Shown here: piece after piece, positions 20,859-56,520 of the stretch | Layout of the letters: each line of letters opens with the position of its first letter | How positions within the stretch are numbered: the first letter of the stretch is position 1 | Assembly: GCF_036669915.1 (NCBI RefSeq) | Contig: NC_089314.1 | Location: 11,123,665-11,187,664 of the forward strand | DNA from: Pocillopora verrucosa | Lineage: Eukaryota; Cnidaria; Anthozoa; Scleractinia; Pocilloporidae | DNA length: 64,000 nt | Reading direction: 5' to 3' | Notes under the pieces: model-generated | Told to the model about the DNA's origin: nothing | Database searches by the model: none | The model's input: only the letters and a program-made list of their open reading frames with translations | Translations under genes and position numbers: made by a program

Positions 20859-21170
20859 TATGATTGTGGAATGAACTGGGAATTTACAGCAGTAAATTAA
20901 TTGGTACAATAAGTAATGTTCTGACTTTTTTTTTATCCCTGGAATGGTTACAAACCGAATTGGACTCCACTCGGTGTCATTACCAATTAATCATAAAATT
21001 TACAATTTCCGAGGAAAGAAGATTAGTCAAGTCATGAAAAAAAGAGAAAATTTGTATCAAAAGACTGACAAAGGAGGCGTAAATGTTTCTGTTCCTATGA
21101 TGATTAAAACCCAGGTTGTGATTGGTTGAATTAAACTATAACTTTGAAAGTGATTGGTTGATTTAAATTA
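20859..21170. other. FAM185A 3' flank
   Basis: No gene. It holds FAM185A 3' sequence, a fragment resembling the ends of the hairpin MITE at 61.4 kb (near 20945-20990), and tandem-like GTGATTGGTT motifs around 21117-21190 leading into the duplicated segment. Confidence 0.5.
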
Positions 21171-22952
21171 CAACTTTAAATGTGATTGGCTTATTGAACT
21201 GTTCAATGATAAACTGTCTGATAACAACTTGGCAAGTGAATTCGTGGAAAATAGGAGTTTTTAAACCAATCGCTATCGAGAAAATTGTAATTTTAATGGT
21301 TATGATATTTTTGTTGGAGCTGATGGTGCACGTTTCATTTGTTTAAAAACTGTTCGTCTACGAACAGCCCCTCCTTTTGAGTGAAGTCCGACACGAAATA
21401 AATCATAGGCATGCGTAGCGTGCAAGAATTTCTTTTTGGCTGGGCGGGTTGAGATGGGACAATCTAATGCGACAATCTGATTGTTGCGAGATACATACCC
21501 TTATGCGGTAATCTGATTGGTGCGATATACATGACCCAAATGTGGTGATCTGATTGGTGCGAGCAACATACTACTCTACACGCTAACCTGGAGTTATATT
21601 TCTTCATTAAAAAAAAAAAAAAAAAAAGAACAACTAAAAAATTGATGGTGACTTCCCTGAGAAAGTTTTCTGCCGTTCCTAGGAGGAGAGTTCATTAATT
21701 GAAATTGAATGTGACGTAAAATTTTCGCATTGGTCGGAAAAAGAAAATTCCATGAGAATTGTTCCCCCTCCCCCTTCCCCGCTCCTTCTTCGGCGGGAAC
21801 ATTTAAACAAATCACTTTTGGGGGCACAGTCTTCTCCGCTCTGTGCAAATCTTGAGGGTGGGTGCGCGTTTGGCTGAGTCATCCGCGGCGTAAGAATAGC
21901 GCACCTAGTGAGGATGATCGGACGTACTTGATTTCCTAACCAGATTTTCCTGGCTATGGCATTCGCGCGGTGCGAGCTCCGATTATAATGTGATCTTGTG
22001 GAAGGTTGGAAAAAATAAGTGAGCCTCGCCTTTACAATTTTACGCTACGCGTTTGAAATCAATTTTCAGTCATTTCGGTGGGTGTTCTTTTTAATCGTTG
22101 AGGGTTGACTGGATATTAGGTATTAGATCATATTTTGAAACTTTCAAGTCACACCATAGGAAAAAACTCATCGTTATGAACAGAAAAAAATGATAACCGT
22201 TGTCCAAAAATATACACTTTTTGGTGGTACAGACAGAGAAACTTCAATCCTCGTTTATTATTTTCAGCCCGAAAACTTTGAAACGGAAAGGTGTGTGTTA
22301 GTGAAAAAATTTCTTGAGTAAATAAACAAAGTAGATCATGCTTTCTGTTACTAAAGGTTCATCTTTATCTCAGTACCACACCATACTCTACATGTTTTAC
22401 AAGACGGCAGGACCTCGAAGTTAAGTACCCTTAAGTCCCGTTTGTTGAAACGGGGTATTTCAATATCCTTGTAAGATAATGAATTAATTTTACCTGCTAT
22501 CATGAACTAATAAAAACGGTTAATTGGTTGTCGATATCCCTCAGTACTACACTATAACATCTTTCTACTTATGCCAATAAAATAAACGAATAGCCCCATA
22601 TTCATACCTATTATGAGATGTTACAAACTCATCTGAGAAAACGATTCTTCTAAGAGGTTCTCAAAGTGTAAAAACAAAAAAAAACATGTAAAAACGTTGA
22701 AAATTAGACGAGCTATCTTTAAACTAAGGGAGAAGCTGAAATTGCTGCGATGAGATGAAGGAGCGTTCTCCTTTCTCATAGAATTTAACTGACGAATTCC
22801 TTTCAAATGGGAATTATTCCTTACAAGGAAAACTGCAAAACTATCCTCGTCCAACACGAATTAAAAATATACGAAGGCGGAATGGAAGACTGGTACCAAT
22901 ATATGTTGTAATGCAAATGTGAGTGTGATTCCATCGTCGATTAAAGCCAAGC

Positions 22953-34335: not shown

Positions 34336-37050
34336 GGCGGCCGTTCCTATGCTTATTCCTCCTGCGAAAGAAAAAACGAATCGTTTTAAAATTTGCGTGG
34401 AATACAAAGGATTGTCAAGTTTTTGTTTTATAAAAGATGTCCTCAACCGTCTTCTATAAAACTGTTGTCACCAAATTGTTATGGGTGCCTCACCACATTT
34501 ATTAAATACTTTCAGAAATTCTTAAAGTGATCACTAGTTTAGTTATCTTACCTTGAAGATCTCTTTGTCCAGCGTGCTTTGAAAAAAACAGGTACGCAAG
34601 AGGTAAATAACTATGGAGGCACAAGTGGAACGAGAATAGATTTAGCTGTATTTTAAGTCTCGAGTGCATTAAATTTTCTTAACGACAAAAAATATCTGCA
34701 AAATTCTCGATAAAACCAAAGATTTAACCAGATCGGCAAGTGGAAGAGAGGCGGTCCTTCTGTGTCCAACTGTTACTGACGTTACCTTGCGTAATGAAAG
34801 CTCCTTATTGCGTTACATAAAAACACGAATAACTTAACATGGACAATAGAAGGTATCAAACCAAAAGAAGCGACCATTTTTTCTTTTTGAAATGTCTATG
34901 GGGAACGAAAAAAAACCTTGAAAATAATATATGTATATAAGAACTCACAAGGTAAGCCTATCGTTATCGTAATTCAAATGGTAATTTGTTTTTTCACAGC
35001 AAATATGGAATCTTTCATTTCTGTAACGGAGTCGCTCCCAAACATATTAAGAAAATCAATCATCCAGCAAAACGAGCCATGTGGTTACAAATGTTTCCTC
35101 TGGCTACATCTTAGCGTAGCAAAGCTTCACATCGATTCCGAAGTCAATCATAGGTTAAATTCTTCCGAAAATTTAGCTTAGTCGATGACATTTTGGCTCC
35201 TTTTCAATCTGTTGTAATATTTTTAATGTCAAATACAAATACGTCTCATGCACAATGGCTCTATAACTAGTCATTTTGAATAGTAATTACCCTTGTAGCT
35301 TTAAGAGAAACAAACCTCCATCACTCCCTCCCAGGAGCTCATTTCGCAGCCTCGGTACCCAAAGCTCCAACAATACAGCACCTTACAGAAGCTGTCGATT
35401 GCGTAACCAACTAATCATATAAAGAGGTGAAATGTCCATCCTTATGAATTACTTGAGTTAATCGACCATGTACAAATAAACAACAAGTTACTTACTAGAA
35501 TATGCTTCAGCAAAGCCGATTATCTTGATCAAAGTTCTGGAATGTATATCGCACTCTTTCGGTTTTAAAAAAAGTGACTTGAAGGCCAGTCAATCTGGTC
35601 TGTATCTTTGTCAGTAGGTATAGAAGAAATATTCCATTATTTCAATTTATGCAAAACAATTCGTCACTCTATTTCCCCATAATGATCGATGGTGGCATAG
35701 TAGATACTCAGTATAATTACGCGTTAAGACTTAGAGAAAGAAATTCAAATATCCGAGGCACTTCGGCCAACAGGTTTAAGAACTTTACCTCAAAAAAATA
35801 CGCTTTATGCTTTGCACATGATTAGCTTCGCCATTATTTTGCCATTATATGCTTGTTGGTTGCTAATACAATCAATTTTTTCTTAGCTATTTATTTTGTG
35901 TTATTGGATTATTATTGTTTGCTGGGCAGACTTGTAATTCAGTTATTTATACTGCAAGAGGTCTTAATAAACATATCCAAATATCCATACCTGAAGCGGT
36001 TCGAAGGAATCGCAGATATTTTGTGCAGCTGCAATCCTCACCTCGAAACCTGCCTTTCTCGACTACGTAAAATGTGTTTCAGCTAATCTCTGAATTTACA
36101 AGCCAACGCAGAGTGTAATTTATGCATGTGAAACAGATCCGTTGAATAACCTGATGAAATGAAAAGAGATAAAACTACCTTACAGTAAACAAAGAACCTC
36201 TGTATCCCAAACAATTTCCATTAATCTCTGAATTTGCAAGCCAATGCAGAGTCTAATTTATGCATGTGAAACAGATGCGTTGAAAACCTGGTGAAATGAC
36301 CAACAATACAACTACTGTATACTAAAATAAAACCTCTGTATCCCAAATAACTTGCATTAGTTCCGGAATTTCCTGTCGATATTATTTCTAGCAGATGCTC
36401 TCATCTAAAATCGTTCCCCTTCAAAGAGTACAACACTGAAGTGTTCACTGTGCTTTGATTGTTCATGAATTCTGAAGATTGGACTACACGTCAGGGCACA
36501 GTTGTTCGAAGAGTGGATGATGCTATCCAACGGATAAATCACTATCCAGCGGATAACTATTAAGAAAACGTATTGCGCTATCCACTATAGTGATTTTCCA
36601 ATGGATAGCGTTATCCAACCTTTGAACAAGCGGCCACAGAGATTGACATAACTAACATCAAAACTTTTATCATGATCTGAGAGTGACAATCAAAGTCAAT
36701 ACAAATAACTCACCTATCAAACATTACGGATTAATTTTGCGTTTGTTGAGGTACTTCAGAATGATAATGAACTGAAAGTTACCAGTTCACTGATCATGAC
36801 TATGATGAAACTAGACTCTACATTTGCATACTCACGCGGCATTGGCAGTTCAGCTCCAGTAGTCTGTGTGCCTTTCCGAAGGTAGGACGCAAAGGCCGAA
36901 GAGGTTTCTTACATATGAATCACATGCAGTAATTGCCTAGTTTACTTCAGTTCATTTTATTTGTTGATGATGTTGGTTTTAATCAACGGCAGATATTGAT
37001 GTGCTGGAAGACGTAAGAAATTATGAAATCTGAAAATGAAACACTTAATC
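34336..37050. other. Upstream region of ABCC4-like copy 1
   Basis: No other gene recognised. A probable 5' untranslated exon end lies at 34336-34361 (acceptor TTTCGCAG). A donor-like CTTCAAG|GTAAGATA at about 34545-34555 may mark a further leader exon. Two near-identical segments at about 36080-36165 and 36222-36300 repeat CTCTGAATTTRCAAGCCAA and ATTTATGCATGTGAAACAGA. The same arrangement occurs upstream of copy 2. Confidence 0.5.
36498..36640. mobile_element. Palindromic MITE, copy 1
   Basis: The left arm GGATGATGCTATCCAACGGA with ATAAATCACTATCCAGCGGA is mirrored by the right arm ending CAATGGATAGCGTTATCCAA and CCTTTGAACAAG. Arms of about 55 bp are imperfect. A copy with an internal deletion sits at the matching place in the second duplicate, so insertion predates the duplication. 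Confidence 0.75.
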
Positions 37051-37763
37051 TGCTATTTTGTGTCTCATAAACTACATCTTAGACATCTCAGAGTGCAAGG
37101 GCAAACAGATAATGACAAGAACTGTCTTTATCGACTAAAAGAAGGCATTTGACCTCGTAAATAACAAGTGCCTCAAATTAACGCACTATGGATTCCGGGG
37201 TCCTAGTCATGACTAGTTCGAGAACCATCTCACTTCTCGCAGTCAAAGAGTAAAGTACAGGTGCAACTTATCCAGTCTTACACTTGAATGTGGCGCACCT
37301 GCTGGTTTAGGTTCCGATAATATCCAAATGACGATTTAAGGAAATCGTGACAGGGTGGAGCAATGGATGAGCAACAGCAAGCTACTACAAAACCTGAGCA
37401 AGACCAAATGTATTCTATTTGGAGAGAACAGAAGCTTGCAGGCTCGACTGACTTTAACATCTAAACGCACAGCATGAAAATTGAAAGGGTTGCCAAGTTT
37501 TGCTGCGTAGCGGTATTGATGGGTGAAGATCTCTGAACAAAGCGCTCACTGAGGTCAACACACGCCTAAGCTTGCTCGACTGCTTTCAGTCATGCCTGAC
37601 TCTTACAAAGCCGATCAATGTGTGTACAGTTCCCTCATTCTGCCGGTTATTTGCTACACAGACACCGCTTGGGGGAACTATCGGCTGCGCGCAGTGGTGA
37701 GTTACGGCAACTACAAAACAGAGCTGTGTATCACTGTGTATCACTATCAGAAGTAATGGCTCC
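37050..37763 (+). mobile_element. Reverse-transcriptase remnant at the end of duplication copy 1
   Basis: The frames read RTVFID-stop-KKAFDLVNNKC, then GFRGP, LTSRSQRVKYR-like, VEQWMSNSKLLQNLSKTKC and LILPVICYTDTAWG, the order of a LINE RT from motif A to the C-terminal tail. It carries stops and lacks about 30 bp around the VPQG-type motif that is present in the copy-2 version. The tandem-duplication breakpoint falls inside this remnant. Confidence 0.8.
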
Positions 37764-39566
37764 AAGAAGTAACAACTTTGAATGTGATTGGCTAATTGAA
37801 CTGTCCGATGACAAACTGTCTTATAACAACTTGGCAAGTGGATTCGTGGAAAATAGGAGTTTTTAAACCCATCGCTATCGAGAAAATTGTAATTTTAATG
37901 GTTATGATTTTTTGTTGGAGCTGATGTTGCACGTTCCATTTGTCTAAAAACTGTTCGCCAACGAACAGCCCCTCCAATTCGGTGAAGTCCGACACGAAAT
38001 AAAACATAGGCATGCTTAGCATGCAAAATTTTCTTTTCCGCCGGGCGGGTTGAGATGGGACAATCTAATGCGGCAATCTGATTGGTGCGAGATACACACC
38101 CCTATGCGGTAATCTGATTGGTGCGAGATACATAACCCAAATGCGGCGATCTGAATGGTGCGAGCAACATGCTACTCTACACGCTAACCTGAAGTTATAT
38201 ATTTTTTTCATTTAAAAAAAAAAAAAAAAACGAATTAGGAAAAAATTGATGGTGACTTGCCTGAGAAAGTTTTCTGCTGTTCTTAAGAAGAGATTTCATT
38301 AATATAAATTGAATGTGACGTAAATTTTCTCATCGGTCAGAAAAAAAATTCCATGAGAGTTGTTTCCCCCCCTTCCCCGCTCCTTCTTCGGCGGGAAAAT
38401 TTAAACAAATCATTTTCAGTTGGGGGCACAGTTTTCTCTGCTTTGTGCAAATCTTGAGGGTGGGTGCGCGTTTAGCTGAGTCGTCCGTAGTGTCAGGAAT
38501 AGCGCACCTGGTGAGGATGATCGGACGTAGGTGATTTTCTAACCAGATTTTTCCTGGCTATGGCATTTGCGCGGTGCGAACTCCGATTATAATGTGATCT
38601 TGTGGAAGGTTGGAAAAAATAAGTGAGCCTAATCCTTTATAATTTTACGCTACGCGTTTACGATCAAATTTCAGTCATTTCGGTGGGTGTTCTTTTTAAT
38701 TGTCGAGGGTGACTGGATATCAGGTATTAGATCATATATTAAAACTTTCAAGTCACACCATAGAAAAAAACTTATCGTTATGAACAGAAAAAAAAGGATA
38801 ACCGTTGTCCAAAAATATACGCTTTTTGATGGTATAGACAGAGAAACTTCAATCCTCAGTTATTATTTTCAGCCCGAAAACTTTGAAACGGAAAGGTGTG
38901 TGTTTGTGAAGAAAATTTATTGTGTAAATAAACAAAGTAGATCATGCTTTCTGTTACTAAAGGTTCACTTTTGTGTCAGTACCACGCCGTACTCTACATG
39001 TTTTACAAGACGACAGGACCTCGAATTTGAGTACCCTTAAGTCCAGTTTGTCGGAACGGGATATCTCAATATCCTTATAAGATAATGAATTAATTTTACC
39101 CGCTATCATGAACTTAAAAAAAATTTAAAACGGTCAGTGGGTTGTTGATATGCCTCAGTACTAAACTATAACATCTTTCTACTTATGCCAATAAAATAAA
39201 CGAATAGCCCAATATTCATACCTATTATGAGACGTTACAAACTCATCTGAGAAAAAGATTCTTCTAAGAGGTTCCCAAAGTGTAAAAACAAAAAAGACGA
39301 TGTGAAAACGTTGAAAATTAGATGAGCTATCTTCAAACTAAGGGAGAAGCTTAACTTACTGCGATGAGATGAAGGAGCGTTCTCCTTTCTCATAGAATTT
39401 AACTGACGAACTCCTTTCAAATGGGAATTATTCCTTACAAGGAAAACTGCAAAACTATCCTCGGTTAACACGAATTAAAAATATACTAAGGCGGAAAGGG
39501 AGACTGGTACCAATATATGTTGTAATGCAAACGTGAGTGTGATTCCATCGTCGATTAAAGCCGAGC

Positions 39567-42500
39567 TCAATGTGCCGCCGTTACATTTTGGGTATGCACA
39601 AGACGAGCAAAGATTCCATCCTCATTTTGTAGCAGCACTTCAGGTTTGTCAAACTCTAACACTCGTCCCTCATCCATAACCACCATTTTATCATAATCTA
39701 TGATGGTGTTCAAGCGATGGGCGATGGTTATTACTGTGGAGTCTTTAAATCTGTTGCGAATAACGTCTTGAATCAGTCTGTCTGTCTTGAAGTCGACATT
39801 AGCTGTGGCTTCATCCAGGATGATTATCTTACTTTTCTGTAACAGTGCACGCGCTAAACAGACCAACTGGCGCTCGCCGACACTGAAGTTGCTCCCAGAC
39901 TCTTTCAACTTGAACTCCAGCTTTTCAGGCAATTGTTGTACCAGGCAACTTAACTGTACATCTTCCAAAGCTCTCCACAGATCATGATCTTTGTATAAGG
40001 AGAAGGGATCTAAGTTCTTCCTAAGGCTTCCGCTAAAGAGGACAGGATCCTGAGTAATGACAGCCATAGATCTGCGAGCTGCCTGTATATCGAGATGCGT
40101 GATATCTATGCCATCTATGATAATCTATTCAAATGAAATGAGGAAGTGGATCAAAATGATGTCGAATAATGATATTTCTAAGGCGTGCATGTAAAACGGA
40201 AACTAATGAAGAGCAAAAAAAATGTCCTCTAAGAAATAATACGTTATTTTATGTTTTTGATCATCATAATTATCAATTTTTCACCATCACAGTCATTTGT
40301 GTCATTAAAACTCACTAACGATTTCTTAAATCAAGTTTTAAGAAAACTTACATTTCGCGTAACAGGAAGGAGATGAAGAAACGATATCTCAAAGTGTGCC
40401 TAACGGTAACACTCTGCATGTTCTCACCTCGCCTTCTGGTTCTGGTGTTCTAAACAAAGCCGTCACTAATGATGATTTTCCAGCTCCCGTACGACCCGCC
40501 ACACCAACCTTCTCCTTATCAGAGATACATAAATTTATTCTGTTCAAAGTCGGTGGTGCTCCCTTCAAGTATGATAAAGATAAGTTTCGCAATGTTAAAG
40601 TGCCTTTTGTTGGCCACGACTCAGGAGGTAGGCTGTCTAGCTTGTATCCAGGTTCAGATTCGATTTGAGTGTAGGTAAACACCCTTTCCACTGATGTCAT
40701 GTAGTTTTCTGTTTCTGAGGCTACCTGGATACCGTACTGGGCTGCTTCCAATGTGTCGACTGCGAAAGTAAGGGACATTCCCGCCAAAGCTGAAAATAAG
40801 AGCGGTTTACCAATTATCTTTGATCATACTTCTACAAAAGTTAGTGAAAAGGAATGTGAAGAGAAGGTTATGCTCTTTGATGATGTACTAAAAGCGTAAT
40901 TCAAATTGCTCTTGTCAAGTGGATATTTTGATAAGTAAATAGGATTTATTAACAGCGCGGAGAGAAAGGAAACTTTCTGAGAGGCAGGAATAGGCTCCTA
41001 TAAGAAAGAGCTCGCCAGGCGAAGAATGTTAATCGATAAAGTGATCACACAAGCGAAAAGAATGGAGATTCAGTTGCACTAGAAACTTTAAGAATATATA
41101 CCTGGGTTTTGTGTTGCAAACAAAGCTCCAGCCGACACAGAAGTGACAAGAAAATTACTCAAACAATTTCCTCGGAAAGCAAGCCATCGTGTTGAGGCCT
41201 TCAGCAAAAACAGGGCTGACGTGTTCTTGTCTTGATATCTTAAAAAAAAGACCAATACATTAATGAGTTCTTCTTAGTTAGAGACCGGTGTCCCAATTAA
41301 GTAAATCGTATTACATTGAGCCAATCGGTTCATGCGAAATTGATGTCATGATCTCACCTTTAAGGAAAATGAAATAAAGAGAATTTTAACGTTACCATTG
41401 AAATCTTTCAACAACAAAAATAAATTTCAAACTCTGCTCACTCCCCCTCCAAAAAAAGAAAAATAATAATAGTATTAATGAATTAATAAAAATATATAAA
41501 TAAGACTGAGCGCCATCTTGAGCCAAAAAACAGAAACTTAGTAACACAAATAATTTTCACTAAATACTTCTTACTATCCGAGTTCGAGGTCCGTACTGTA
41601 ACTTACCAACGGAGCTTTTTTCTGCTCGGTTTTATGACCCGAGCGTAGAACATAAATATGAGCAGAAATAACGAGATCTGTAACTTACAGAACAAACCAA
41701 CAAACATGGTTTGTTTAGATATTTAATATATCTCTGTATTCTAATAGAGGGGAAGGTTTAAAGTAAAACTAACTTTGTAATCAGTCGGGGTGTACAGTGA
41801 AATACGGCCCGCCAAAATTACCAATCGTAACGTACGTACTAACTAAAGAATATGCTAAGTGTACCAAAGAATAGCTTTAGCCTTAAGTTAAAGATATGTA
41901 ATATCTATGAAATTGATTGAGTAGAAATTATGTTTAAACAGCTCCTGCCCATCAGAAATGAGGTCTGTACAAAAGGTCGTAAAGATTGATAGCGGCTCAG
42001 CTGTTTTCAAAAACCCTAATTGCTTGCAGTTTCGATCATTTTGATTTTTATCTTTTCTGCCATTCAATATCTCAACTAAATATTCCGTTTAAAATAAATG
42101 GCTTACAACTGCTAACGTTTTCTCTTTCCATGTCTATGACAATTGTTTAAAGTAATGGGATCCACCATACAGTCCAATGTTTTATTCAATGCAGGTGGAC
42201 AGATTTTAATTTTATTTATTTTTTATTCACTTATTTATTTATAATATGCCTTTATATGCATATTAAAAGAGGAACAAAGCTAATTTCTACAGATAATTCA
42301 TGGGAAATAGAAAATAGAAAAAGGAAAGGCGAAGAAGTCTCAAAAAGCCGGAAAGGCCTATAGGTGAGGCTCCCTCACCTATAAGCCTTCCAACCTATAA
42401 ATTAGAGTTGAAGTTAAACTAGGATATAGAACGTAATTTAAAAAGTGTAAAGTACTAAGAAAATTTAATTACTTAATATTAATAACCTTGCTATAAAATT

Positions 42501-45500
42501 CATTGGGTATTTTGCAAATTGATTGAATAGGATGTAATTAACCGGTTTAAGGATCCTACATTGTTAGGTTCAATATCAAATGAAGTACAGTTCAACAATT
42601 TTTTCCTTGATATTAAATTGTGAATTGTTTAATGTTAGTTCTATAGACTTGGGGACGGTATAATTCAGGATATTTAATATTCGTAACAATGACATTGTAT
42701 TTTCATAGGGCACTCACCGATAAAACTTTTTCAGAAAATTATCCTCCATCCCAGATGATCTTATCACCTCTAATCCAGCCATTGTATCAGCAATAAGGGA
42801 ATACACCGGACTGCAGGTTATAGCTTCGAGTCGCCTGAGCTCTCGAGCGGATTTCAAATAATATTTAGTCAGGTAGATAAAAAGTACTGTTAATGGAGTG
42901 CAAGTAATGAAGAGCCAAACATTGGATACCGCTGAAAGAATGGTAGCACCAAGAAAGTGAAGACATAATTGAACGGCAAAGAGAAACTTTCCTGGAAGCA
43001 GGTCATCCATGCAACCGACATCTTTGGAGAAACGGTTCAAGATGCGACCAACTGGATTAGTATCAAAGAATAAAACTGGTGCTTTGAGAACAGCGTTTAT
43101 CATCTGGTCATGAAGGTTTCCTGATGCTCTCAAAGCAGTGACATAGAAACAGAACGAGGATACGATTGTAAAAAGCAAGGAAGCAATAGCAATTGATCCG
43201 TACACCGAAAGAGTGATGAAATTTTTTTGCTTTTCAAATGGCATTTCTGTCATTCTTGAGACCCACCAGAAGGGTGCTATCCACAATACTGAGGAGAGAC
43301 AAAAAATTGAATGGTATGTATAAGTGCCTTGAAAAATTAAAAAGACTGTGATTAATGGTGTTAAGGCTATACGGTTAGTAATAATGTACCTAAAAGTATA
43401 GCCACGGCTAACTTTATTTGCTGAAGAAGACGAGTTTCATGATGTTCTCTGTCGTCATGATGAGGCAAATGTTCAGATTTTTTCATAGCTTCTTGCAATT
43501 TAGAATGGCTTGATGAACTCGTACTTATAGGCGATGGATTAACACTCCTTTTCAAAGCTATCACGCGATTAACGAGTACAAATTATTTCGACCAAGACTG
43601 TCATTTTTTATTCGAGGGAAATTTAGACAATGCATAGGATGATCCAAGCTGGCGAGGGTCCTCGCATAGTTATGAAAATTTCCAGACAGTTTAGCGGCAT
43701 GGGTCATGAAAAAAAAAACACTCCAAGCGATTGTCACTTACCTAGTACAAAAGTCAAGAAAACGGAAAGGCTTGCTATCATGATAGTTGGCAGTGCAGTT
43801 CTGAAATATTTCCAGTACAACAACCACTTCACACTTCCAATCATTCTATCCTCCGCATCATCTGTGAGATCCACTCTTTCACCATTTATTTGAGGGACAG
43901 TCATTGATTTGTCTTTGCACACAACTGTAGCCATTTCAAGATCATCTTTCTCCAAACTGGGGGCTCCTTTCGCTTCACGCTGAGAAAAGCGAAAGCCCAT
44001 GCTGAGTTGAAGTACTTGACTATATGTCCCTTGACCTACAACCGAACCATTCTCAAGCAGCACAACGCTGTTAGTCTTTTTTAGAAACTGCAGCTGATGA
44101 GTAGCCAGAATGCGTATTCTTCCGCCCAGAAACTCCTTGATACACCTCTCGAATAGATTTTTGCCGACTTTGGCATCCACTGCACTGAGTGGGTCGTCCA
44201 ATAAGTAAATGTCAGCATCAGTGTATATCGCGCGTGCTAGACTTACTCGAGCACGCTGACCACCGCTCAAGATGACTCCGCGTTGACCAATTTCAGTTAG
44301 ATCGCCTTTAGGAAAACATTTAATATCTTTCTCAAGGTCACAAACCATGATAACTTTATTGTATTTTTCGGCGACAAACTGTCTGCCAAACACAATATTT
44401 TCTCGCACTGTGCCTGAATAGACCCAAGGAATTTGGGATACGAAAGCCATTTTTCCGATACAAGAAATTCGACCAGAACATACGGGAAGTTCTCCCAGAA
44501 TACTAAGTAGTAAAGTTGTTTTGCCGCTTCCAACTGGGCCTGTTAAACCCACAAGCTGCCCATCAGCAACATCTAACGAAACGTTTTGTAGCGCAGGAAT
44601 CTCCGACGTTTTACTCCAAGCACACGAAACTTTGTCGAGCGTAACCTTCGGTGGATGGTTGTCGATTAGCGGTTCCAGCTTTCGAGCACCAACTAATACC
44701 GGTTTTCCATTTTTAAAACTATCAATTCTGACAAAATTCGATCGCTCTCTTCGGTCTGTAAAGGGCAATATTGTATCGCCGTGATCTATTTGCATCTTTG
44801 ACAAGGAATTCTTTTCTAGTATCCTCTGCATTCTGCAACAAGCCGTCCTTGCGTCGGCAATGTAGTGCAATCCATGAACAAGGAATATTGTCACCACCAT
44901 TTTAGTGTTACTCAACACCAAAAGCAATGTAAAAGCCATAAATGAGGTCAGCAGATTCCCTGTAAGGAGCAGCGTTACGACTGAAATAAAACCTGCAATC
45001 GTGGAGCTGGTGAAGAACAGTGCGTAGATACTGGAGATGAAGAATCCTCGTATACGAATCAGAGAGATCTCTTTCCTGTGGAAAACATTTTGAAGGAATG
45101 TAATTCGTGCATGTGGCGTTATTTAACACTCTGCTAGTTTTTTCCTGGTATGGTGGGCCCATCTCCATGATTAATCGGTGGACGAAAGTCTAAAATTACG
45201 TTTTCACACAAAACGCATGTACAGAGAAAGATGTAAATTTAAATTTCATCGATTGATTAATCAAGGGCTATCACTATGAAATCTTGTAATCTTTACATAT
45301 AAGCACGTACCAATTGGACTGAGGGGACGGTCGAAAATTTCAGATTTAAGAAAACAATATATGTGATTCATGATTCCTTAGGGGTTGAAGAGTTAAAGTC
45401 TATCTGTTGGTAAAATTATGATATTTTCTGGAAAACACAACAATCCTCTAACCTTCTTATTTGTGCAACCAGATCCCTAAAGTTCCATTCCCAAGCGTAC

Positions 45501-48500
45501 ATTTTTACCATGCGGATACCAGAGATGATCTCATTCATTATTTTCAGCCTCTCGTCGGTTACTGCAGCAGCCCGGTGGCGTATTTTCCCAGTTTCACGAG
45601 CTATGAAGGATCCGTAAGCAACGACCACAAGAAAAAAGGAAATTCCTAACAACGCTTGCCAGGCCACTAAGTACCATACAAAAGCCAAAGAGGCAATGAG
45701 GTCTACAAAGGCGAATGAAAATGAATACAAGACATAACCCAGCTCCTCAATAGTTTGAGCATCGTTGGAAACAAGGTTGATAGTGTTCTCCGAAAGCGAG
45801 TCTTCTAAGGTGCATCTCTGACTGTTGAGAATCTGACAAAGAAAAAGGGAAACAAGAAAGATATTGTTATTTTAAAAAACGGTAAAAGTGCCTTTTCTTC
45901 ACGTACACAGAATCATTTCTGTGCAGGGGAAGTATCCTCTTAAAAGGATGTTATCTTTATCTTTACGATTGAAATGTATATCTGTAAATGTACTATTTAC
46001 ATGTTTGAGATTTCAAACAGTAAACCAACCGTTTCGAGATTTCTCTTTGAGCGTGCTGAAAAAAACTCGACAATTGACGCCGCCAGTTCGAATAAACTAT
46101 CTGTGAACGTAATGCAGCAACTCGTGGTTCACAACCGAAAAGACCCTTGTCCCTTTATATGGCGCAGAAATGAATTTTGGATGTTGGATGCCTTTTGGCG
46201 TATCTCCTAATTTGCAAACCAATCATGAAGGAAAAGAAGGAAAGGAGAAAAATAAAAGAAGGGAAACACGAGAAAGCTTCAAGGACGCTACGTAAGATTA
46301 TTTGACATGGCGGGGACCGTACTTGACTATAGAGTACAAGAAAGACAAGTCTAAAAGATTGTGTCGGTTGTAGGAATCTCAAACACTGCCTGCCAGGGTA
46401 CCAAGTAGTATCCGGTGTCCCTCGGTAATTCTAGCGCCTCATTGCACATGTGTCGATTAAAACGGGAATTCTTAATGAATTACACACTTTGTCCGTGTTG
46501 AAGTCGTAATGAGTTCATAATTTCATACACGCTAACTTTTGGCAGAGCATACACTTGCATTACAATGCGTTTTTAGTAAAGAACTTTAGCATCGGTAACG
46601 AAAGAGACGACGAGGACGGCTGGAAGTCCTATCGTGACACTGTCAAGTTACGGCACATGTGCTTTTTTAGCGGGCTGTCGTTCTATAGTCGTTGTGGACA
46701 AAATTTTTAGTGCTAACGCATTCAAACGAGAAGGCGAGTAATTTTCACCTGTGTTAAGTTGCAAAAACCTGAAGTTTACAGGATTTTAAATTTAGTTTAC
46801 TTTCACGGATTTCATTCCTTATAGACATTCAAACCTTGTATTCTAACACTTTGTAAATGGAGATGAACTTTATTCGTCTCGAGTATCCAAGCTTTGCATG
46901 GGATCTTTTAAACGAAACCGTTTTATTTTCTTGGTTTACACCTTACATAAGGGGTGTATCAGAGATTCTTCGCCGCTGCCTACAACATCAAGCATAAGGA
47001 CCGTTTTCAAATCTGACATACCGCTTAGGTCTCACTGAGTGCGACCTAGCTAAAGATGCCTTAGAACCAACAAAACAAAACGGTGTCGTTTACAAGATCC
47101 CATGCGACTGCGGCAAAGTGTATATCGGTGAAACAGGGAGATCAATGCGAAAAAGGATAAAAGAACATGACAGAGACATACGGTTTGCTCGTACTCAGAC
47201 CCCTGCGGTTTCGGAGCACGCTAACGAAACGGGGCATATTCCTATGTGGGGCCAGGTTAAGTTCATTGATTGTGATCCACACGTAGAGTCAAAGAGGCTA
47301 TCCAAAAAGACTTCATCCCAACCACATCAGTGGAATCGAAATTCCTGAAGCTTGAATACCCACGATCAAACAACAGAACAGCCGATCATCTCGGACCTAT
47401 GAGGGAACACCATCTAACAACCGGAATAATAATGAGGATCGAAATACACCAACAGCAGCGAATCAACGTGCTACAAATAGCGACACGTAAAGAATCGACA
47501 TAACCTCCTGATGAAGACTAGCAGCATTGCAGTCGAAACGTCGCGATCAACATCCAAAGTGACACCATCGTGAGACAAACCAGTAAAGTTCATCTCTTAT
47601 CTCACACCATGATGAACAATAACCACATATTTTATCACCTTATGAATGAATAATTGATTTTATGTATTTTCTGGGGAATTCGACACCACGATTAAAGTAT
47701 GCATGAGTATCATGGCTATAAATGTGCCATTGCTCTGTATTTGGCCATCAGCCTGTCCTTGTACATTATATTGCTGTTTTTTTAAAGTTGTCATAAAATT
47801 ACCTCAAAAATTCAACTTTTCTGTGATTTCAGAGGAACAAATGTCTTCAGTGGACCTTTGACCATGAGGTTATCATATACCCGAAAGTTCTAGTCTCAGA
47901 ACCGTTCAATTTTAAACTGAGGGGCCCGGAAAACGGCTCTTAGAGCGAAAAGAACTCTTCATCATCGATCCAATCGCGTTTGCAAAAGAGAGGAAGCAGA
48001 GTTCAAATATTTCCACACGATGCCATGCCACAACGAAATTTTCTTCGCTTTCTTTGACCCGAGCTTTTGCATAACGTTTTTTCGCTCCGAAAGACCAACA
48101 TTACTCCACCGCCCTGGTCGATGCTAAAGCTCTCTATTATAATAGTCAATATCAAACGTTGTGACAAAGCAAATGCGGCCATCTGTAATACTAATGTGCA
48201 TAAAAGTTGTTGTGAATCCTCCGTGCAACAAAGATTTCATGGAAAACAAAAATGCCGATATTACTGAATAAAATTAATCGCGGTTATCAGCCACAACTAT
48301 CAAAATCACTATATCTTTTCTGCCCACCTTCTTATAAATGAGTCCCACCACGGCAACTTTCAGTCTTATGGCTAATACGTGCGCCTTAAACATGGCTTTG
48401 GATTGCACGACAGTTCTCATCATGGTGACCAGAAAAATACCAATTACAAAGGGCAGAGATGTCTTGTAACTGATACCTGTGCCTGTAGAAATACTTCTCA

Positions 48501-48843
48501 AGAAGTACCATATCAACAGAAGTAGCGCATGCAATGTTAGTGAGTAACATAGCCTTAGTAATGCCATAATGACATAATCTCGGCGGGAAATCGTTCTCAT
48601 CATGGCCCTCCATAAGCGAGGCTTTGTTCGTTGGTGTGCAGTTGCTCTTTTCTCCGCGACCCATTCTCGTTCCAGTTCAGTAACTAGTCTTTCTGTTCGA
48701 TTCGAAGTATCCACCCGGAATAAAAGGCTTTCGTCTAGGGGCTGTTTACTACCAAGCTTGAGAACATCATTCAGCCAAGAGAAAGTTATCAGAGAGAAAA
48801 AACCCGCCTTTTCTATAGGATTTGTACCAGAAATATCTTCCAT
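39567..48843 (-). CDS. ABCC4: ABCC4/MRP4-like ABC transporter, copy 2
   Basis: Minus-strand exons: 48328-48843, 45453-45832, 43742-45075, 42718-43288, 41102-41238, 40428-40789 and 39567-40124. The structure is the same as copy 1, giving 3858 nt and 1285 aa; exon 3 lacks two codons in the linker after NBD1 (VCKDKSM versus VCKDTHKSM). Both NBDs keep Walker A (GPVGSGKTT, GRTGAGKSS), signature (LSGGQRAR, FSVGERQL) and Walker B motifs. The 166 residues from the NBD2 start MAVI to the C-terminus differ from copy 1 at only three positions. Most substitutions lie in the linker regions and membrane domain 1. Expected role as for copy 1: ATP-driven export of organic anions at a membrane. The intact motifs suggest both genes are functional; different regulation or substrate range is possible but unproven. 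Confidence 0.92.
42181..42366 (-). mobile_element. Short LINE/SINE tail inserted in copy 2 only
   Basis: About 185 bp is absent from the matching intron of copy 1, where CAGTCCGATG runs almost straight into CTCCCTCACC. Read on the minus strand it begins CCTCACCTATAGGCCTTTCC and ends in an A-rich stretch with several AATAAA motifs. This is the form of a retroposed 3' end. Confidence 0.65.
43390..43557 (-). other. Candidate cassette exon in ABCC4-like copy 2
   Basis: Counterpart of the 168-nt phase-1 exon candidate in copy 1, still open with the same splice borders. The predicted peptide differs at Trp-to-Arg, Ile-to-Met and Tyr-to-Asp, against few silent changes. That substitution pattern does not show strong purifying selection. 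Confidence 0.35.
46407..46520. repeat. Dispersed repeat, copy-2 instance
   Basis: Same block as at 29517-29640, carried along by the segmental duplication. Confidence 0.6.
46930..47607 (+). mobile_element. Penelope-like element fragment, copy 2
   Basis: This copy keeps a longer reading frame: YRLGLTECDLAK-like sequence after a break, then a GIY-YIG nuclease (GVVYKIPCDCGKVYIGETGR, RIKEHDRDIRFARTQT, SEHANETGHIP) up to a stop at 47346. The 3' tail after that includes CTGATGAAGACTAGCAGCAT and GCAGTCGAAACGTCGCGATC, typical of Penelope-like 3' ends. The RT catalytic domain is missing. It is shared with copy 1, so it inserted before the duplication. Confidence 0.82.
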
Positions 48844-51574
48844 GGCGGCTGTTCCTATGCTTATTCCTCCTGCGAAAAGAAAAAAACCAATCGTTGTAAA
48901 TCCGTGGCATACAAAGGATTGTCAAGTTTTTGTTTTATAAAAGATGTCCTCAAGCGTCTTCTATAAAACTGGTGTCACCAAATTATTATGGGCACCTCAC
49001 CACATTTATAAAATACTTTCAGAAATTCTTGAATTGATCACTAGTTTAGTTATCTTACCTTGAAGATCTCTTTGTCCAGCGCGCTCTGAAAAAAAAAACA
49101 CGCACGCAAGAGGTAAATTACTATGAAGGCGCAAGTGGAACGAGAATATGTTTAGCTGTGTTTTAAGTCTCGAGTGCATTAAATTTTCTTAACGACAAAA
49201 AATATCTGCAAAATTCTCGATAAAACCAAAGATTTAACCAGATCGGCAAGTGGAAGAGAGGCGGTCCTTCTGTTTCCAACTGTTACTGACGTTACCTTGC
49301 GTAATGGAAGCTCCTTATTGCGTTGCATAAAAACATGAATAACTTAACATGGACAATAGTAGGTATCAAACCAAAAGAAGCGACCATTTTTTCTTATTGA
49401 AATGTCTATGGGGAACGAAAAAAAAATTCAAAAGGAAAAAAAAAACCTTGAAAATAATATATGTATATTAGAACTCACAAGGTAAGCCTATCGTTATCAA
49501 AATTCAAATGGTAATTTGTTTTTTCACAGCAAATATGGAATCTTCCATTTCTGTAACGGAGTCGCTCCCAAACATATTAAGAAAATCAATCATCCAGCAA
49601 AACGAGCCATGTCGTTACAAATGTTTCCTCTGGCTATATCTTAGCGTAGCAAAGCTTCACATCGATTCCGAAGTCAATCATAGGTTAAATTCTTCCGAAA
49701 ATTTAGCTTAGTCGATGACATTTTGGCTCCTTTTCAATCTGTTGTAATATTTTTAACGTCAAATACAAATACACCTCATGCACAATGGCTCTATAACTAA
49801 TCATTTTGAATAGTAATTACCCTTGTAGCTTTAAGAGAAACAAACCTCCATCACTCCCTCCCAGGAGCTCATTTCGCAGCCTCGGTACCCAAAGCTCCCA
49901 CAATACAGCACCTTACAGAAGCTGTCGATTGCGTAACCAACTAATCATATAAAGAGGTGAAATGTCCATCCTTATGAATTACTTGGGTTAATCGACCATG
50001 TACAAATAAACAACAAGTTACTTACTAGAATATGCTTCAGCAAAGCCGATTATCTTGATCAAAGTTCTGGAATGTATATCGCACTCTTTCGGTTTTAAAA
50101 AATGTGATTTGAAGGCCAGTCAATCTGGTCTGTATCTTTGTCAGTAGGTATAGAAGAAATATTCCATTATTTCAATTTATGCTAAACAATTCGTCACTCT
50201 ATTTCCCCATAATGATCAATGGTGGCATAGTAGATACTCAGTATAATTACGTATTAAGACCTAGAGAAAGAAATTCAAATATCCGAGGATCTTCGACCCA
50301 CAGGTTTAAGAACTTTACCTCAAACAAATACACTTTATGCTTTGCACATGATTAGTTTCGCCATTATTTTGCCATTATATGCTTTTTGGTTGTTAATACA
50401 ATCAATTTTTTCTTAGCTATTTATATTGTGTTATTGGATTATTATTGTTTGCTGGGCAGACTTGTAATTCAGTTATTTTTACTGCAAGAGGTCTTAATAA
50501 ACATATCCAAATATCCATACCTGAAGCGGCTCGAAGGAATCGCAGATATTTTGTGCAGCTGCAATCCTCACCTCGAAACCTGCCTTTCTCGACTACGTAA
50601 AATGTGTTTTAGCTAATCTCTGAATTTGCAAGCCAACGCAGAGTGTAATTTATGCATGTGAAACAGATCCGTTGAATAACCTGATGAAATGAAAAGAGAT
50701 AAAACTACTTTACACTAAACAAAGAACCTCTGTATCCCAAACAATTTCCATTAATCTCTGAATTTGCAAGCCAATGCAGAGTCTAATTTATGCATGTGAA
50801 ACAGATGTGTTGAATAACCTGATGAAATGACCAACGATACAACTACTGTATAATAAAAAACAACTTCCATTAGTTCCGGAATTTCCTGTCGATATTATTT
50901 CTGGCGGATGCTCTCATCTAAAATCGTTCCCCTTCAAAGAGTACAGCACTGAACTGTTCACTGTACTTTGATTGTTTATGAATTCTGAAGATTGGACTAC
51001 ACATCAGGGCACAGTTGTTCGAAGAGTGGATGATGCTATCCAACGGATAAATCACTATCTAGCGGATAACTATTAAGAAAACGTATTGCGCTATCCACTG
51101 GATAGCGTTATCCAACCTTTGAACAAGCGGCCACAGAGATTGACATAACTAACATCAAAACTTTTATCATGATCTGAGAGTGACAATCAAAGTCGATACA
51201 AATAACTTACCTATCAAACATTACGGATAAATTGGCTTTTGTTGAGGTACTACAGAATGATAATGAACTGAAAGTTACCAGTTCACTGATCATGACTATG
51301 ATGAACCTGGACTCTATATTTGCATACTCACGCGGTATTAGCAGTTCAGCTCCAGGAGTCTGTGCCTTGCCAAAGGTAGGACGCAAAGGCCGAAGGGGTT
51401 TCTTACATATAAATCACATGCAGTACTTACCTAGTTTACTCCAGTTCATTTTATTTGTTGATGATACTGGTTTTAATCAACAGCAGATATTGATGTGCTG
51501 GAAGACGTAAGAAATTACGAAATCTGAAGATGAAACACTAAATCTGCTATTGTGTATCTCACAAACTACATCTT
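48844..51574. other. Upstream region of ABCC4-like copy 2
   Basis: Counterpart of 34336-37050 with the same leader-exon signals and the same pair of short repeats (about 50620-50700 and 50755-50830). No independent gene recognised. Confidence 0.5.
51010..51130. mobile_element. Palindromic MITE, copy 2 (internal deletion)
   Basis: Same flanks and arms as at 36498-36640 but shorter by about 20 bp in the right arm, where CTATCCACTATAGTGATT... is reduced to CTATCCACTGGATAGCGTTA. Confidence 0.7.
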
Positions 51575-51633
51575 AGACATCTCAGAGCGCAAGGGCAAAC
51601 AATTAATGACAAGAACTGTCTTTATCGACTAAA
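51575..51633 (+). mobile_element. Left part of the RT remnant in copy 2
   Basis: Encodes LDISERKGKQ and TRTVFID, continuous with the FDPVNNKC stretch that resumes at about 55823. The two parts are separated by the 4.18 kb DNA transposon. Confidence 0.75.
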
Positions 51634-54600
51634 GGTAATTCCCTTTAAATTGTTCTACAATCAAACTCTTTTTGAAACTTGGTATAATTAACATTCATGA
51701 TAAAACCTTAAAAAAAAATGCAATTAAAAAATGGGGTCACCGTGCTTGTTTACGCGTCAGCAGGCTCTTAAAATGGGGTATTTTTACTGGTTGCGCGTTA
51801 AAAATTCGAATCTCCTTCGTACAGAATTTAGCCTTAGTAACTTGAAAGAAATTTTAATTTGAAATTAAAGCTTCTTTTATTAAAATAAATGGTATTGCTT
51901 CATGTTAGCGGTTTCTGATTGCCTGGTTGTGGGGATTTTGCACTTTTTCGGACAGTTCCGAAATGGTGCCCATCGTGTTCGAAACTTGCAGCTAAATATA
52001 GGAATTGCACCGACCTGTGATTGAAGTTAAAAATAACATTAGTCACGCTGTTGAGCTCAAGAGACTTGCTGATCACGTTGGCATTTGTGGACGAAAATTA
52101 TGTTAGCATTAAAAATCTTTCCTTTTTTCAAATCAAATAAACACAAGCTTTGATATTATCGCTGGAAGATAAATTTTCGGGTTCAAATATTGAATGTAAT
52201 ATTAAGACCCTTTCAGAATTACTGTTTGCATTCTTGTTTGCAACCAAACCAACAGAGTAAATAATTGTTTTACAAAACATTAATTTCATAAATTGCAATC
52301 TTAATTTGCGTTATTTATAAAGTACTGACATATTTTTGCCAGCACCCGCTTGTTTGAGGAGACTCTGGGTTTGTTGTCAAACCTCTCCATACTGAACTTT
52401 CTTCACCCCTTTTTCCTTGCCTCTTTGTTACACCACTTGTAGGTGATGGAGACCCAAACCTGAGCTTGCACACTTAATGGCCATTGAGGCTGAAATGTAC
52501 TTATCTCTGACTAATGGCTGCGGGGTATTAACCAGAAGTTTCTTTTCTTTTAGGAGCTTTTGATAGGATGTCACCCATGAAACTTTGAAACTCTGCTTTT
52601 GTAGCAGTTTGACATTTAGAAACTTGTTCACCAGCTGGTAGAGTATTTGCACATTTGCAAGAGCATTGTGAGCTTCATAGGATTTACACAGAAGATCTTG
52701 TACAAGGTTTTCCTGGCTATGGGATTTCCTTTCAGGAGGCAATTCCCTGAATGCTGGAATAGAGTCTGTAAAGCCAGAAACAGTTTTAGCTAAGTCATCC
52801 ATGACTCCATTTTTCTCTGCTGCTTGTACCAAGAACCTGGCATCAAAGGATTTGCAATTGTACGTAACTAAAATGCAAGGCATTCTTGATTTCAGCCACT
52901 CAATGAAGTTCTGCAGGGTCACATCAATTGCAATGGCATCAGTAATTGGCTTCCCATCATGAAACAGCATTCCTCTTTGGAAGGTGAGTTTGTTCACATC
53001 AGATGCTTCTGGTGATATTACATGATAAGGCTTGATATAAATAAAGAACTCATCTTTACCATCTGTTGCTGTAATTTGTAGGATTTCGGCATCATTACCT
53101 GATGTCAACAAAGATAAACAAATTTTTTAAGATATTGTAATCCAATTATTACTTTACAAAGATTTTACAAGGAAAATGTAATAAAAAAGCTAAGTGCATC
53201 TATGCAGGTTATATATAAAATAAAAATAGAAGGAGCGATTACTGAATACCTCTCCTGCTAATTCACATCTCGCCTATTTTCTTTAAGAACAAGGCAAGAT
53301 AAAACAAAGGAATCTATGTGATGCAAATTAGCAGGATAAGTCTTCAGCAATTTAGCAAAATAGAACAACAATTCCGTGATTAAATATAATTATTCTCTAA
53401 TGTGTAATTCAGAAATACCCTGCTAAGACAAACATGGTTATATTCACTTTGTTACTTTTTTGCTGAACTCCACCCTGCAAAGCTAATTACCCCTTTCTGG
53501 ATGTTTCTAAATCAAATATGATTTGATGGTAGTCTTTGGTTAATGATACTTTCTCAATCTTTGAGGCTGCAAGTGGTGCTGGAATTTCCTGAGCGGCATT
53601 GTGTCCATCGAAGCCCATTCCAGAACTATACTGTTGTCCTTCTCTGTTCTCAAGCTGTTTTGTCTTTTTCAACCGCTTCTCTTTCTTCTCAATTCTTTTC
53701 TTCTTGTACTCTCTTTTTTTCTGTTTCTCTTTCAAACTTAGAATTCTCTTGTCCATTTTCTTTGCTAACTTTAAAGAATTGGAACCTGGAGATAGTTGTG
53801 TCTTCATAAAAGCCTAAAAGAAATTCACTAGCCTTAGGGAAAACAATATTCTAAGTTATAATATAGTGTTTTATTATTTGTTTTTTTTGTGACTCATAAT
53901 ATGCAATAGGTACTGGTAGTATAACACTGGACACATTGGTTAATGTTTAATGTTCAATGGATCTCACAAACTGGGAAGTGTACAAAATGCTCATAATATT
54001 ATATCTGCTCACCTGAGAAACATAAGAATGGCCTAAGTTCTTTTGGCCAACAGCACATGCAACACAGAAGTCATTGTTTTTGCTAGATCTGTAGTGTCCA
54101 ATCTTTGGAGCTTTGCTTCCTATAGTGTTGTGGAGTGCTTCATTTGCCTGGCTTGACCCAAGGGGAGCTAGCTTCTTGGCATTTGAAGCATAAACCTAAA
54201 TTGAAGAAGCAAACAGTTTTTTTCACTAAAATTTGGTATCTCATAAAGCTTGTGAAACTAAGAAAGAGGTTGATAGTCCCCTGACACTTATAGCTTTATC
54301 CCTTGCAGTTATTATTTAGAATAAATTCATAAGCACTAACACTATTTTCATAGATTTGTGTTCCTCTACTACATGTAAAATGTTGGGAATTGGGAATTTG
54401 TGAGGAGTGAGCTGTGCCACCATGCATGTACACTGTACTTACTTCTATGATCTTTCCCAGGGACTGCCTCAAGCTTTTGTCTGTCAGATCCTTGCCATAG
54501 GGAAGGCCTGTGTGTTTGTAGGATGCAGGATTTTTTAAGTAGCCACACCAGTTGCCACAGGAAGAATGGTCACCATAAGCATGGGGTACAATAGACTCCA

Positions 54601-55814
54601 GACCATTTTGCACGCCTTCTTCGTCATCCTTATTCTGCTTTAGTGTGTAACCAAAGCATCACTGGAAATACCATATCACCATATCTGTCAGGCTTCTGTT
54701 TTGGGTTTTGATGCTGTATAGTGAGCTACCAAAGGATCTTTTAGCATGGACTACATCTGACCATTTTTCAATCTCGTGTTCGACATTTTTCCTCACTTTG
54801 CTAATGCTGGATGAATCATCATCCCCAACAAGAACAGATACAACTGCATTTTTTTCTTCACAACTGTTAAGCAGAGTGAAACCACAAAAATAACATTTTG
54901 TGCTATAAAAAGTGAGGGCATTCAAACTACACCTAGGCATTATCTTAAAGTATTTTCTTTTTTGCATTTTTAACATACTCATATTCAAAAATATAGGTGC
55001 ATTTTTATGTTGGCTTTCTTGTCAAATTTTCAATCATTGTTACCAAGGGTGTTAGGTACTGTAAGACTTTCCACTGTTCATAGTTCAAGTGTCATTACTG
55101 TAACATTGATATCATAAGAAAAGATTCCACAAGTCTCTCTTTGGAGCAATAAAACTGCGAATTTAACATTTTAATAACTATTGTTATAATTATTATTTTA
55201 TTTTTTATTTTTATTATAGCATACCTGATTATTAATTACCTTTTGACCAGATCAACACAAACATCAGCTTCCATAGCTTTTGACGAGCCTTCCCAGTTGA
55301 GTCTGCAGTCGTGTATGCGAGGCTTTTTTGACTGTCTGCTGGCAGTTTCACATGTTGCACACCTTTATAAAAGACATTATGGGTAAAGGTCCTGGGTAGC
55401 ACCCATATTTGCCTCCTCTTGAAAGTGTTGTCATATGTTGAATGATTCTGTACTTTCTGTGGTCAAATTGAAAAAAAAAACATAGCAGCTTTCTATGAAA
55501 ATGCATATCCAAATGCACCCTTTTCAATTCTTTCAGGTGTAGAATTTGTCAGGCTGTTGTGGTCTTTTTCCCTTTTTCGGCCGCGAAGTTTAAATCCACT
55601 GCAGACTTCCGGATTACGCACATTTTTTCTTTTCCTTGTTTTTTGAGAGCAGACCAGGAAGCTGTCAGCCGATTTGCGGCATATTACGAATAAAAGCTTT
55701 CACTCTGCAAAACAAAAGCTTTCGCTCTGCAAGAGCGGCCCTTGTCTGTTCTTTTCACGCTAGCGGGAAGAACGGCGCAGAAAAGGTCGAGCAGTGCAAA
55801 GCAAGGGAATAACC
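51634..55814 (-). mobile_element. Mutator-like DNA transposon with exonuclease fusion
   Basis: The ends are inverted: GGTAATTCCCTT at 51634-51645 and, reading inward from the right, GGTTATTCCCTT at 55814-55803 (one mismatch). Including two flanking A residues they extend to 14 bp. The sister duplicate has the uninterrupted RT remnant at this place, a natural empty site. Length is 4181 bp. A clear target-site duplication is not visible; the flanks GACTAAA and TTCGGTG differ. The coding strand is minus and carries the transposase/exonuclease gene described separately. Confidence 0.85.
52428..55362 (-). pseudogene. Mutator-like transposase fused to a DEDDh exonuclease, degraded
   Basis: Minus-strand exon-like blocks: 55240-55362, 54443-54863, 54013-54195, 53491-53813 and 52428-53098. 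The first three give motifs of the Mutator-like transposase domain found in cnidarian elements (SSKAMEADVCVDLVK, VLVGDDDSS, EIEKWSDVVHAK, CFGYTLKQNK, PHAYGDHSSC, LAPLGSSQANEALHNTIGSK). A Lys/Arg-rich linker follows. The tail is a DnaQ-like fold with ExoI IIFDLETS, ExoII VTYNCKSFDARFL and ExoIII YEAHNALANVQIL. Lesions: in-frame TGA at 54659-54661 before CFGYT; one extra G in the GGGG run at 53490-53493, which throws the last splice out of phase; and Asn where ExoIII normally has the metal-binding Asp. The N-terminal transposase part is not found in the remaining 450 bp. Family role: transposition in the nucleus; the part played by the exonuclease is unknown. Confidence 0.8.
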
Positions 55815-56520
55815 TTCGGTGTTTGACCCCGTGAATAACAAGTGCCTCAGATTAAAGCACAACGGAGTCCGGGGTCCTAGTCATGACTAGTTCAAGAACC
55901 ATCTCACTTCTCGCAGTCAAAGAGTAAAGTGCAACTTATCCAGTCTTACACTTGAATGTGTCGCACCTCAAGGTTTTCTACTAACACCTTTGCTGTTCGT
56001 TATATACGCCGCTGGTTCAGGTTCCGATAATATCCAAATGACGATTTAAGGAAATCGTGACAGGGTGGAGCAATGGATGAGCAACAGCAAGCTACTACAA
56101 AACCTGAGCAAGACAAAATGTACTCTATTTGGAGAGAACAGAGGCTTGCAGGCTCGACTAACTTTAACATCCAAACGCACCGCATGGAAATTGAAAGGGT
56201 TGCCAAATTTTGCTGCGTAGCGGCAGTGATGGGTGAACATCTCTAAACAAAGTGCTCACTGAGGTTAACACACGCCTAAGCTTGCTTCACCGCTTTCAGT
56301 CATGCCTGACTCTTACAAAGCCGATCAATGTGTGTACAATTCCCTCATTCTGCCGGTTATTTGCTACACAGACACCGTTTGGGGGAGCTATCAGTTGCGC
56401 GCAGCAGTAAGTTACGGCAACTACAAAACGGAGCTGTAGGTATCACTATCAGAAGTAATAGCTCCAGTGAGCAAGGCTATCGAGGCGTTAGGCTGGTCTA
56501 ACTTTGCATTTTGCAATGCA
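55815..56520 (+). mobile_element. Right part of the RT remnant in copy 2
   Basis: Continues the LINE RT: FDPVNNKCLRLKH, a VAPQGFLLTPLLFVIYA stretch (the VPQG motif region missing from copy 1), VEQWMSNSKLLQNLSKTKC, LILPVICYTDTVWG and SKAIEALGWSNF. Several stops and frameshifts. It extends beyond the duplication boundary, so this is the original right flank. Confidence 0.78.

Follow-up and report, generated by a model that had tools for sequence, protein, structure and literature searches.

The window, i.e. the whole 64,000-nucleotide stretch of Pocillopora verrucosa DNA analysed here, contains a tandem duplication of 21170-37764 (about 16.6 kb) and 37772-56466 (about 18.7 kb), in which large blocks are 92-96% identical. 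ABC-transporter coding blocks are present in both halves of this duplication (21170-56466). The segment 51634-55814 is an insert in the second duplicate. Comparison of the tandem copies placed the empty site in the first one within 37100-37200 (plus strand), at about position 37140, as the preliminary description had claimed. The ends of the insert are AAGGTWATTCCCTT, in inverted order. The inverted ends, also proposed before, comprise 14 bp with one mismatch at the insertion boundary. By end comparison, one terminal inverted repeat lies at the 3' end of the gene (51634-51645, plus strand, GGTAATTCCCTT, with two more matching bases outside) and the other at its 5' end (55803-55814, GGTTATTCCCTT on the minus strand). 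When the flanks of this copy were compared with the empty site, no clean target-site duplication was found; on the gene strand, the insert is bordered by CGAA and TTTA, and one flank differs from the empty site at several bases.

The bare 12-mer end was genome-wide no commoner than its reversed control (66+58 vs. 61+58 occurrences). Counting of elements by the 12-mer ends alone was rejected, since these are as frequent as the control. They are meaningful because they are placed at the insertion boundary and recur at the ends of relatives. For TTAA followed by the 12-mer and the next bases, two places in the genome (three rows) were detected, both of them copies of the window family, and the control matched none. 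The insertion site (37100-37200 and the flanks of 51634-55814) resembles part of a decayed reverse transcriptase, namely the region of the motif FxDxKKAFD of these enzymes; for one flank ORF at this site no Pfam match was obtained. A LINE-like insert is present at 30451-33114 of the first tandem copy (RVT_1 4e-28, endonuclease 5.8e-10, PHD finger) and absent from the second.

The element is read on the minus strand, in the order transposase blocks, basic linker with ExoI, presumed intron, and ExoII/ExoIII with the start of a PML_C domain. Within the transposase region (55364-54013), one piece matched PF20700 with 2.7e-15 and another with 5.5e-5, the latter under the cut-off of this model. Translation and transposase search identified a block with a CCHC finger (CATC..HDC) at 55209-55364. 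The block at 54437-54886 contains the second Asp (VGDDDS), DxxH (SDVVH) and the second zinc finger and is split by a TGA at 54659-54661; the block with the catalytic Glu (SSQANEALHNTIGSKAPK) was found at 54013-54198 by the transposase search. The basic linker and ExoI (FDLETS) were located by translation at 53487-53813, the linker being similar by eye to that of the sister family L030. Comparison with relatives indicated a presumed intron between ExoI and ExoII at 53127-53486, with the acceptor CATCAG/GTAATGATGC. It is followed at 52428-53126 by an open frame that encodes the ExoII and ExoIII motifs of a DEDDh exonuclease and runs into PML_C. For the frame 53126-52431, Pfam reported RNase_T (6.1e-6) and PML_C (4.9e-7) with 30.3 bits, above the curated PML_C (PF25244) cut-off of 27.1 bits. 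The PML_C itself (52389-52520, 4.1e-10, profile 6-49) is truncated and has one TAA inside. All these blocks lie on the minus strand.

Several lesions were found in this copy. At the deletion point 55577-55578 (minus strand), this copy lacks about 545-620 bp that the relatives C13 and C9 possess, among them the first-Asp exon (FDMGW); the block with this first catalytic Asp of the transposase is present in C9, C13 and C5. The ExoI exon has one base more than in all four relatives seen (C6a, C6b, C9 and C13), and the phase-1 junction AAGGG/GT..CAG/GT gives no read-through here. Of the phase-compatible exon blocks described previously, the order on the minus strand could be retained, but not the ExoI/ExoII junction. 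ExoIII reads HNALAN, with the last Asp changed to Asn, and C9 and C6b keep the Asp. Because of the deleted first Asp, the in-frame stop, the extra base in ExoI and the Asp to Asn change in ExoIII, the window copy is dead and incapable of moving by itself.

The exonuclease search of the genome (353 Mb) identified six loci of the window family (nine rows); at the protein level the exonucleases of four rows compared are 83-90% alike. The 3' end AAGGGAATTACC (gene strand) is common to C6a, C9 and C13. The 5' end GGTGATTCCCTT was detected in C5 and C9, and a decayed form of it in C13. For the eight ends seen, exact TTAA was found in four cases, a one-base variant (TTTA, CTAA, TTCA) in three cases and CGAA in one.

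In a sister family, L030, which has 47% identity to the transposase query, seven near-identical copies are distributed over six contigs. Their frame has 971 codons in six copies and 949 in one, without stops. The DED, H/D and DDE motifs are present and the five catalytic exonuclease residues are kept in 7/7 copies. Pfam matches of the L030 ORF are PF20700 at aa 113-448 (6e-106), Exu_RNase_H_like (1.4e-8) and RNase_T (3.3e-8), the exonuclease spanning aa 673-855. The copies on C1 and C12 (5.58 kb) share 99.57% identity and have flanks that differ; their inverted repeats of about 980 bp have 94.8% identity. TTAA is found on both sides of six of the seven copies, at different sites; the seventh has TTAA at the 3' end only, its 5' end being lost, with reverse-transcriptase-like sequence on the 5' side. 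Judged from these features, the copies of this family have evidently moved recently. Since they hold transposase and exonuclease in one frame, the fusion belongs to the transposon itself and is no by-product of a decayed copy, and both parts are, on the reading of these frames, one protein of one transposon. Thus, the joining of a transposase to a DEDDh exonuclease, postulated from the window copy, is borne out by seven copies with both parts between TTAA-flanked inverted ends. Just upstream of the 971-codon ORF, an ATG-led basic peptide in a different frame was observed (L030:537), perhaps a first exon. For relatives of the 971-codon protein in IMG/VR, four pattern matches and no confirmed one were obtained.

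The co-occurrence of both parts, proposed earlier as a check, was examined with 62 of 63 exonuclease/PML_C rows (a second row of the C5 locus was left out) against all transposase rows, at least 87 in the genome. For 34 of the 41 exonuclease/PML_C loci counted, a transposase match was found within 6 kb, and at two more (C10:15403056 and C9:11467805) closer inspection of the examined DNA showed transposase pieces. The remaining five comprise four broken fragments (C12:14751557, C6:23397550, C6:23559021 and C8:15520593), with no transposase seen in the 1.8-2.3 kb upstream, and C1:6424659, which lies in a cluster of related copies. An intact separate host gene for the exonuclease, named beforehand as the refuting case, was not found among the best genome matches listed, C1:6424659 lying outside the DNA examined. 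That a transposon relic merely lies beside an unrelated host exonuclease gene by chance would fit the broken and intron-split reading of the window, but it is contradicted by the single open frame in seven L030-type copies, by the presence of both parts together at 34 of 41 loci and, on closer inspection, at two more, and by the common ends in relatives, and can practically be dismissed.

Among the matches listed, 28 of 62 transposase loci are without an exonuclease row within 6 kb. These belong mostly to distant lineages, with 21 in a class of 25-35% identity and seven closer relatives. No exonuclease was found in the three members of the 25-35% class examined. The closer relatives were examined at four of the seven loci, by tblastn with a table of exonuclease pieces that does not include L001-L008 and L031-L036. 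Exonuclease pieces are present at L044 and L045, and none was detected in the 1.5 kb flank of L051 and L056 (a further 2.5 kb of L051 was translated only). At L062, L063 and L064, other PF20700 transposases were noticed whose open frames span 610-746 codons and contain no exonuclease. Furthermore, numerous KolobokD copies that are related to one another and broken lie clustered at C1:5.1-7.2 Mb of the genome (G000; L039-L045, L047, L049, L050, L052-L055 and L057); in the copies seen there, ExoIII is mostly HDALEN, with the last Asp changed to Asn.

Kolobok transposons are described as having TTAA duplications and 5'-RR/YY-3' ends, and KolobokD, reported 2022 in Mob DNA and known from molluscs, arthropods and cnidarians, as a lineage of Kolobok whose transposase contains a CCHC finger and is accompanied by a DEDDh exonuclease (PMC9587614). 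These features were found again here. A 4-bp TTAA target-site duplication is present in the L030 family (both sides, 6/7 copies), and the RR...YY termini are GGT..ACC in both families. Between the second Asp and Glu, the C/DxxH is DVVH in the window and DVNH (aa 377) in L030, and the zinc finger is CGNWC in the window and CSNSWC (aa 443) in L030. The CCHC finger downstream of the first Asp is located at aa 301 in L030 and corresponds to CATC..HDC in the window. The DEDDh exonuclease accompanies the transposase, with residues intact in the seven L030-type copies and altered in the window copy. The Kolobok label is given because of the TTAA targets, the GG..CC ends and the zinc-finger/DxxH signature. 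The KolobokD assignment, made against the published description and not by a tree, rests on target site, termini, motifs and exonuclease. Hence, the window element is very probably a dead KolobokD copy, whose relatives would carry transposase, linker and DEDDh exonuclease in one protein. A distinct new transposon lineage, as suggested in the preliminary description, is not involved, since KolobokD was already described in 2022 (PMC9587614); it is a known kind of transposon, although thinly described. PiggyBac was ruled out by the GG..CC ends, and no piggyBac model occurs among the Pfam rows; piggyBac shares the TTAA target, but its termini are other than RR..YY (PMC9587614).

The label Mutator-like, under which the element had first been placed, could not be kept, as target site, termini and signature are those of Kolobok. 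A Mutator (MULE) transposon that acquired an exonuclease would explain the match to PF20700, which Pfam names 'Mutator-like transposase'. This name is not diagnostic, because the model also matches 3/3 examined transposases of other lineages in the genome, which have no exonuclease. The target-site duplication of MULEs is 8-11 bp. Such a duplication is absent, none being visible in the window copy, and Mutator membership was ruled out by the TTAA target. Target sites and Kolobok signature thus contradict this origin, which is very improbable.

In the window family, the exonuclease runs into the Pfam domain PML_C (PF25244), L010 scoring 70.7 bits (1.2e-19) and L041 35.3 bits. For the L030 family, scores of 20.1 and 23.5 bits were obtained, under the cut-off of 27.1, and this family is absent from the matches of the PML_C genome search. 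The six-frame search reported 18 matches, all above the cut-off and up to 81.7 bits. Six belong to the window family and nine to the transposase-exonuclease cluster at C1 5.1-7.1 Mb; the other three are C2:10295867, which has a transposase match at a distance of about 2 kb, C10:15403056, where pieces of a transposase occur, and the fragment C6:23397550. In 14 control genomes no PML_C match was found. The PML_C piece alone matched no solved structure with an E value of 10 or less. When a profile was built from 12 KolobokD rows, its best structures were 9l8b (9.6e-35) and 9mrd (2.7e-31), both of Plex9 type, followed by Exuperantia (4.8e-14) and TREX1 (3.9e-6). The SAM subdomain of PML-1 is described as occurring, among structural homologues, only in Exuperantia and in no other nuclease (PMC12934764), and PML_C and this SAM-like subdomain are presumably the same stretch. 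The SAM-like domain of Exuperantia (PF18609) gave a score with L041 only, which at 14.1 bits (E 0.057) is not significant and lies under the curated cut-off of 28.9 bits.

From the motifs, the following mode of action can be proposed. The protein would be arranged as transposase, basic linker, DEDDh 3'-5' exonuclease and PML_C, the last being clear in the window family. The DDE transposase would excise the element and insert it at TTAA, which suggests cut-and-paste movement, and the exonuclease is predicted to be active. For KolobokD, its authors suggested a degradation of DNA intermediates by the exonuclease, starting at their 3' ends (PMC9587614). As the likeliest role, although only tentatively, the exonuclease could trim 3' DNA ends or intermediates of transposition while tethered by the transposase. 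Alternatively, it may not serve DNA ends and, together with PML_C, may bind nucleic acid, e.g. RNA of the element or target DNA. Precedents are the EXO/SAM region of PML-1, a catalytically inactive binder of G-rich single strands, and Exuperantia, likewise a pseudo-nuclease (PMC12934764). Against a binding-only module stand the five catalytic residues kept in 7/7 L030-type copies and the closest solved relatives, Plex9, which are termed active (PMC12934764), so that binding alone seems rather unlikely. Trimming by the transposase-fused exonuclease, and its role in general, is directly testable, because the genome offers seven near-identical copies in which the frame is open and the target sites are clean.

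The preliminary description had further considered the element a possible source of host genes. The matches to PML_C and Plex9 strengthen this proposal, whereas the direction of descent is left undecided by the trees. In the best trees PLEX9 is placed among the KolobokD exonucleases, a position that is weakly supported (68.8/49 in one tree, 52/87 in another). In the AU test, a single group of all KolobokD exonucleases that excludes PLEX9 and Exuperantia was not rejected (p 0.2), and neither was a clade of KD2 and PLEX9 (p 0.128). Judged by these relationships, the EXO and PML_C module of the transposon is a candidate for the origin of PLEX9, of PML-I exon 9 and perhaps of Exuperantia. We give close to an even chance to the wider reading that KolobokD spread an EXO and PML_C/SAM-like module in animals, with PLEX9 and PML-I exon 9 of vertebrates, and independently Exuperantia of insects, as domesticated tails. 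The reverse, in which KolobokD captured the module from a host gene ancestral to PLEX9 and PML, fits the AU result for a single KolobokD group. It is somewhat doubtful, given the position of PLEX9 in the best trees, weakly supported as it is, and the lack of an intact stand-alone gene of the EXO and PML_C kind among the genome matches listed. If the module did spread from KolobokD, the active-nuclease ancestor of the SAM subdomain of PML-1 would sit in a transposon. The PML_C tail thus poses an answerable question on the origin of a domain in PML, a human tumour-suppressor and antiviral protein. Literature joining Kolobok with PML was not found within our coverage, which does not include the PLEX9 paper (PMC10123124).

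Compared with known systems, the elements share with the published KolobokD the TTAA target, 5'-RR/YY-3' ends, two zinc fingers and the transposase with DEDDh exonuclease (PMC9587614). The families described here are apparently other than the published ones. KolobokE likewise has a nuclease downstream of a Kolobok transposase, but of the PD-D/ExK lambda-exonuclease type and not DEDDh (PMC9587614). The KolobokD exonuclease was likened by its authors to exuperantia, TREX and ERI1; in the main text of that paper PML has 0 occurrences, and no mention of Plex9 was encountered (PMC9587614). The closest solved relatives are the Plex9 or PML-like exonucleases (PDB 9mrc, 9mrd and 9l85, to which 9l8b is 56% identical). 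Over trimmed columns, Plex9 has 38-40% identity to three window-family rows, whereas the window family and sister KolobokD families share 24-30%. The Plex9 nucleases are vertebrate host proteins without transposase (zebrafish in the case of Plex9.1; PMC12934764). Drosophila Exuperantia has EXO followed by a SAM-like domain, comparable to EXO and PML_C of the KolobokD tail, but is a pseudo-nuclease; the SAM-like domain was reported as gained in arthropods (PMC5597691). The C-terminal EXO/SAM region of PML-1 (PXL) combines, as in the window family, an exonuclease fold with a further domain, and retains one of four DEDD residues and no nuclease activity (PMC12934764).
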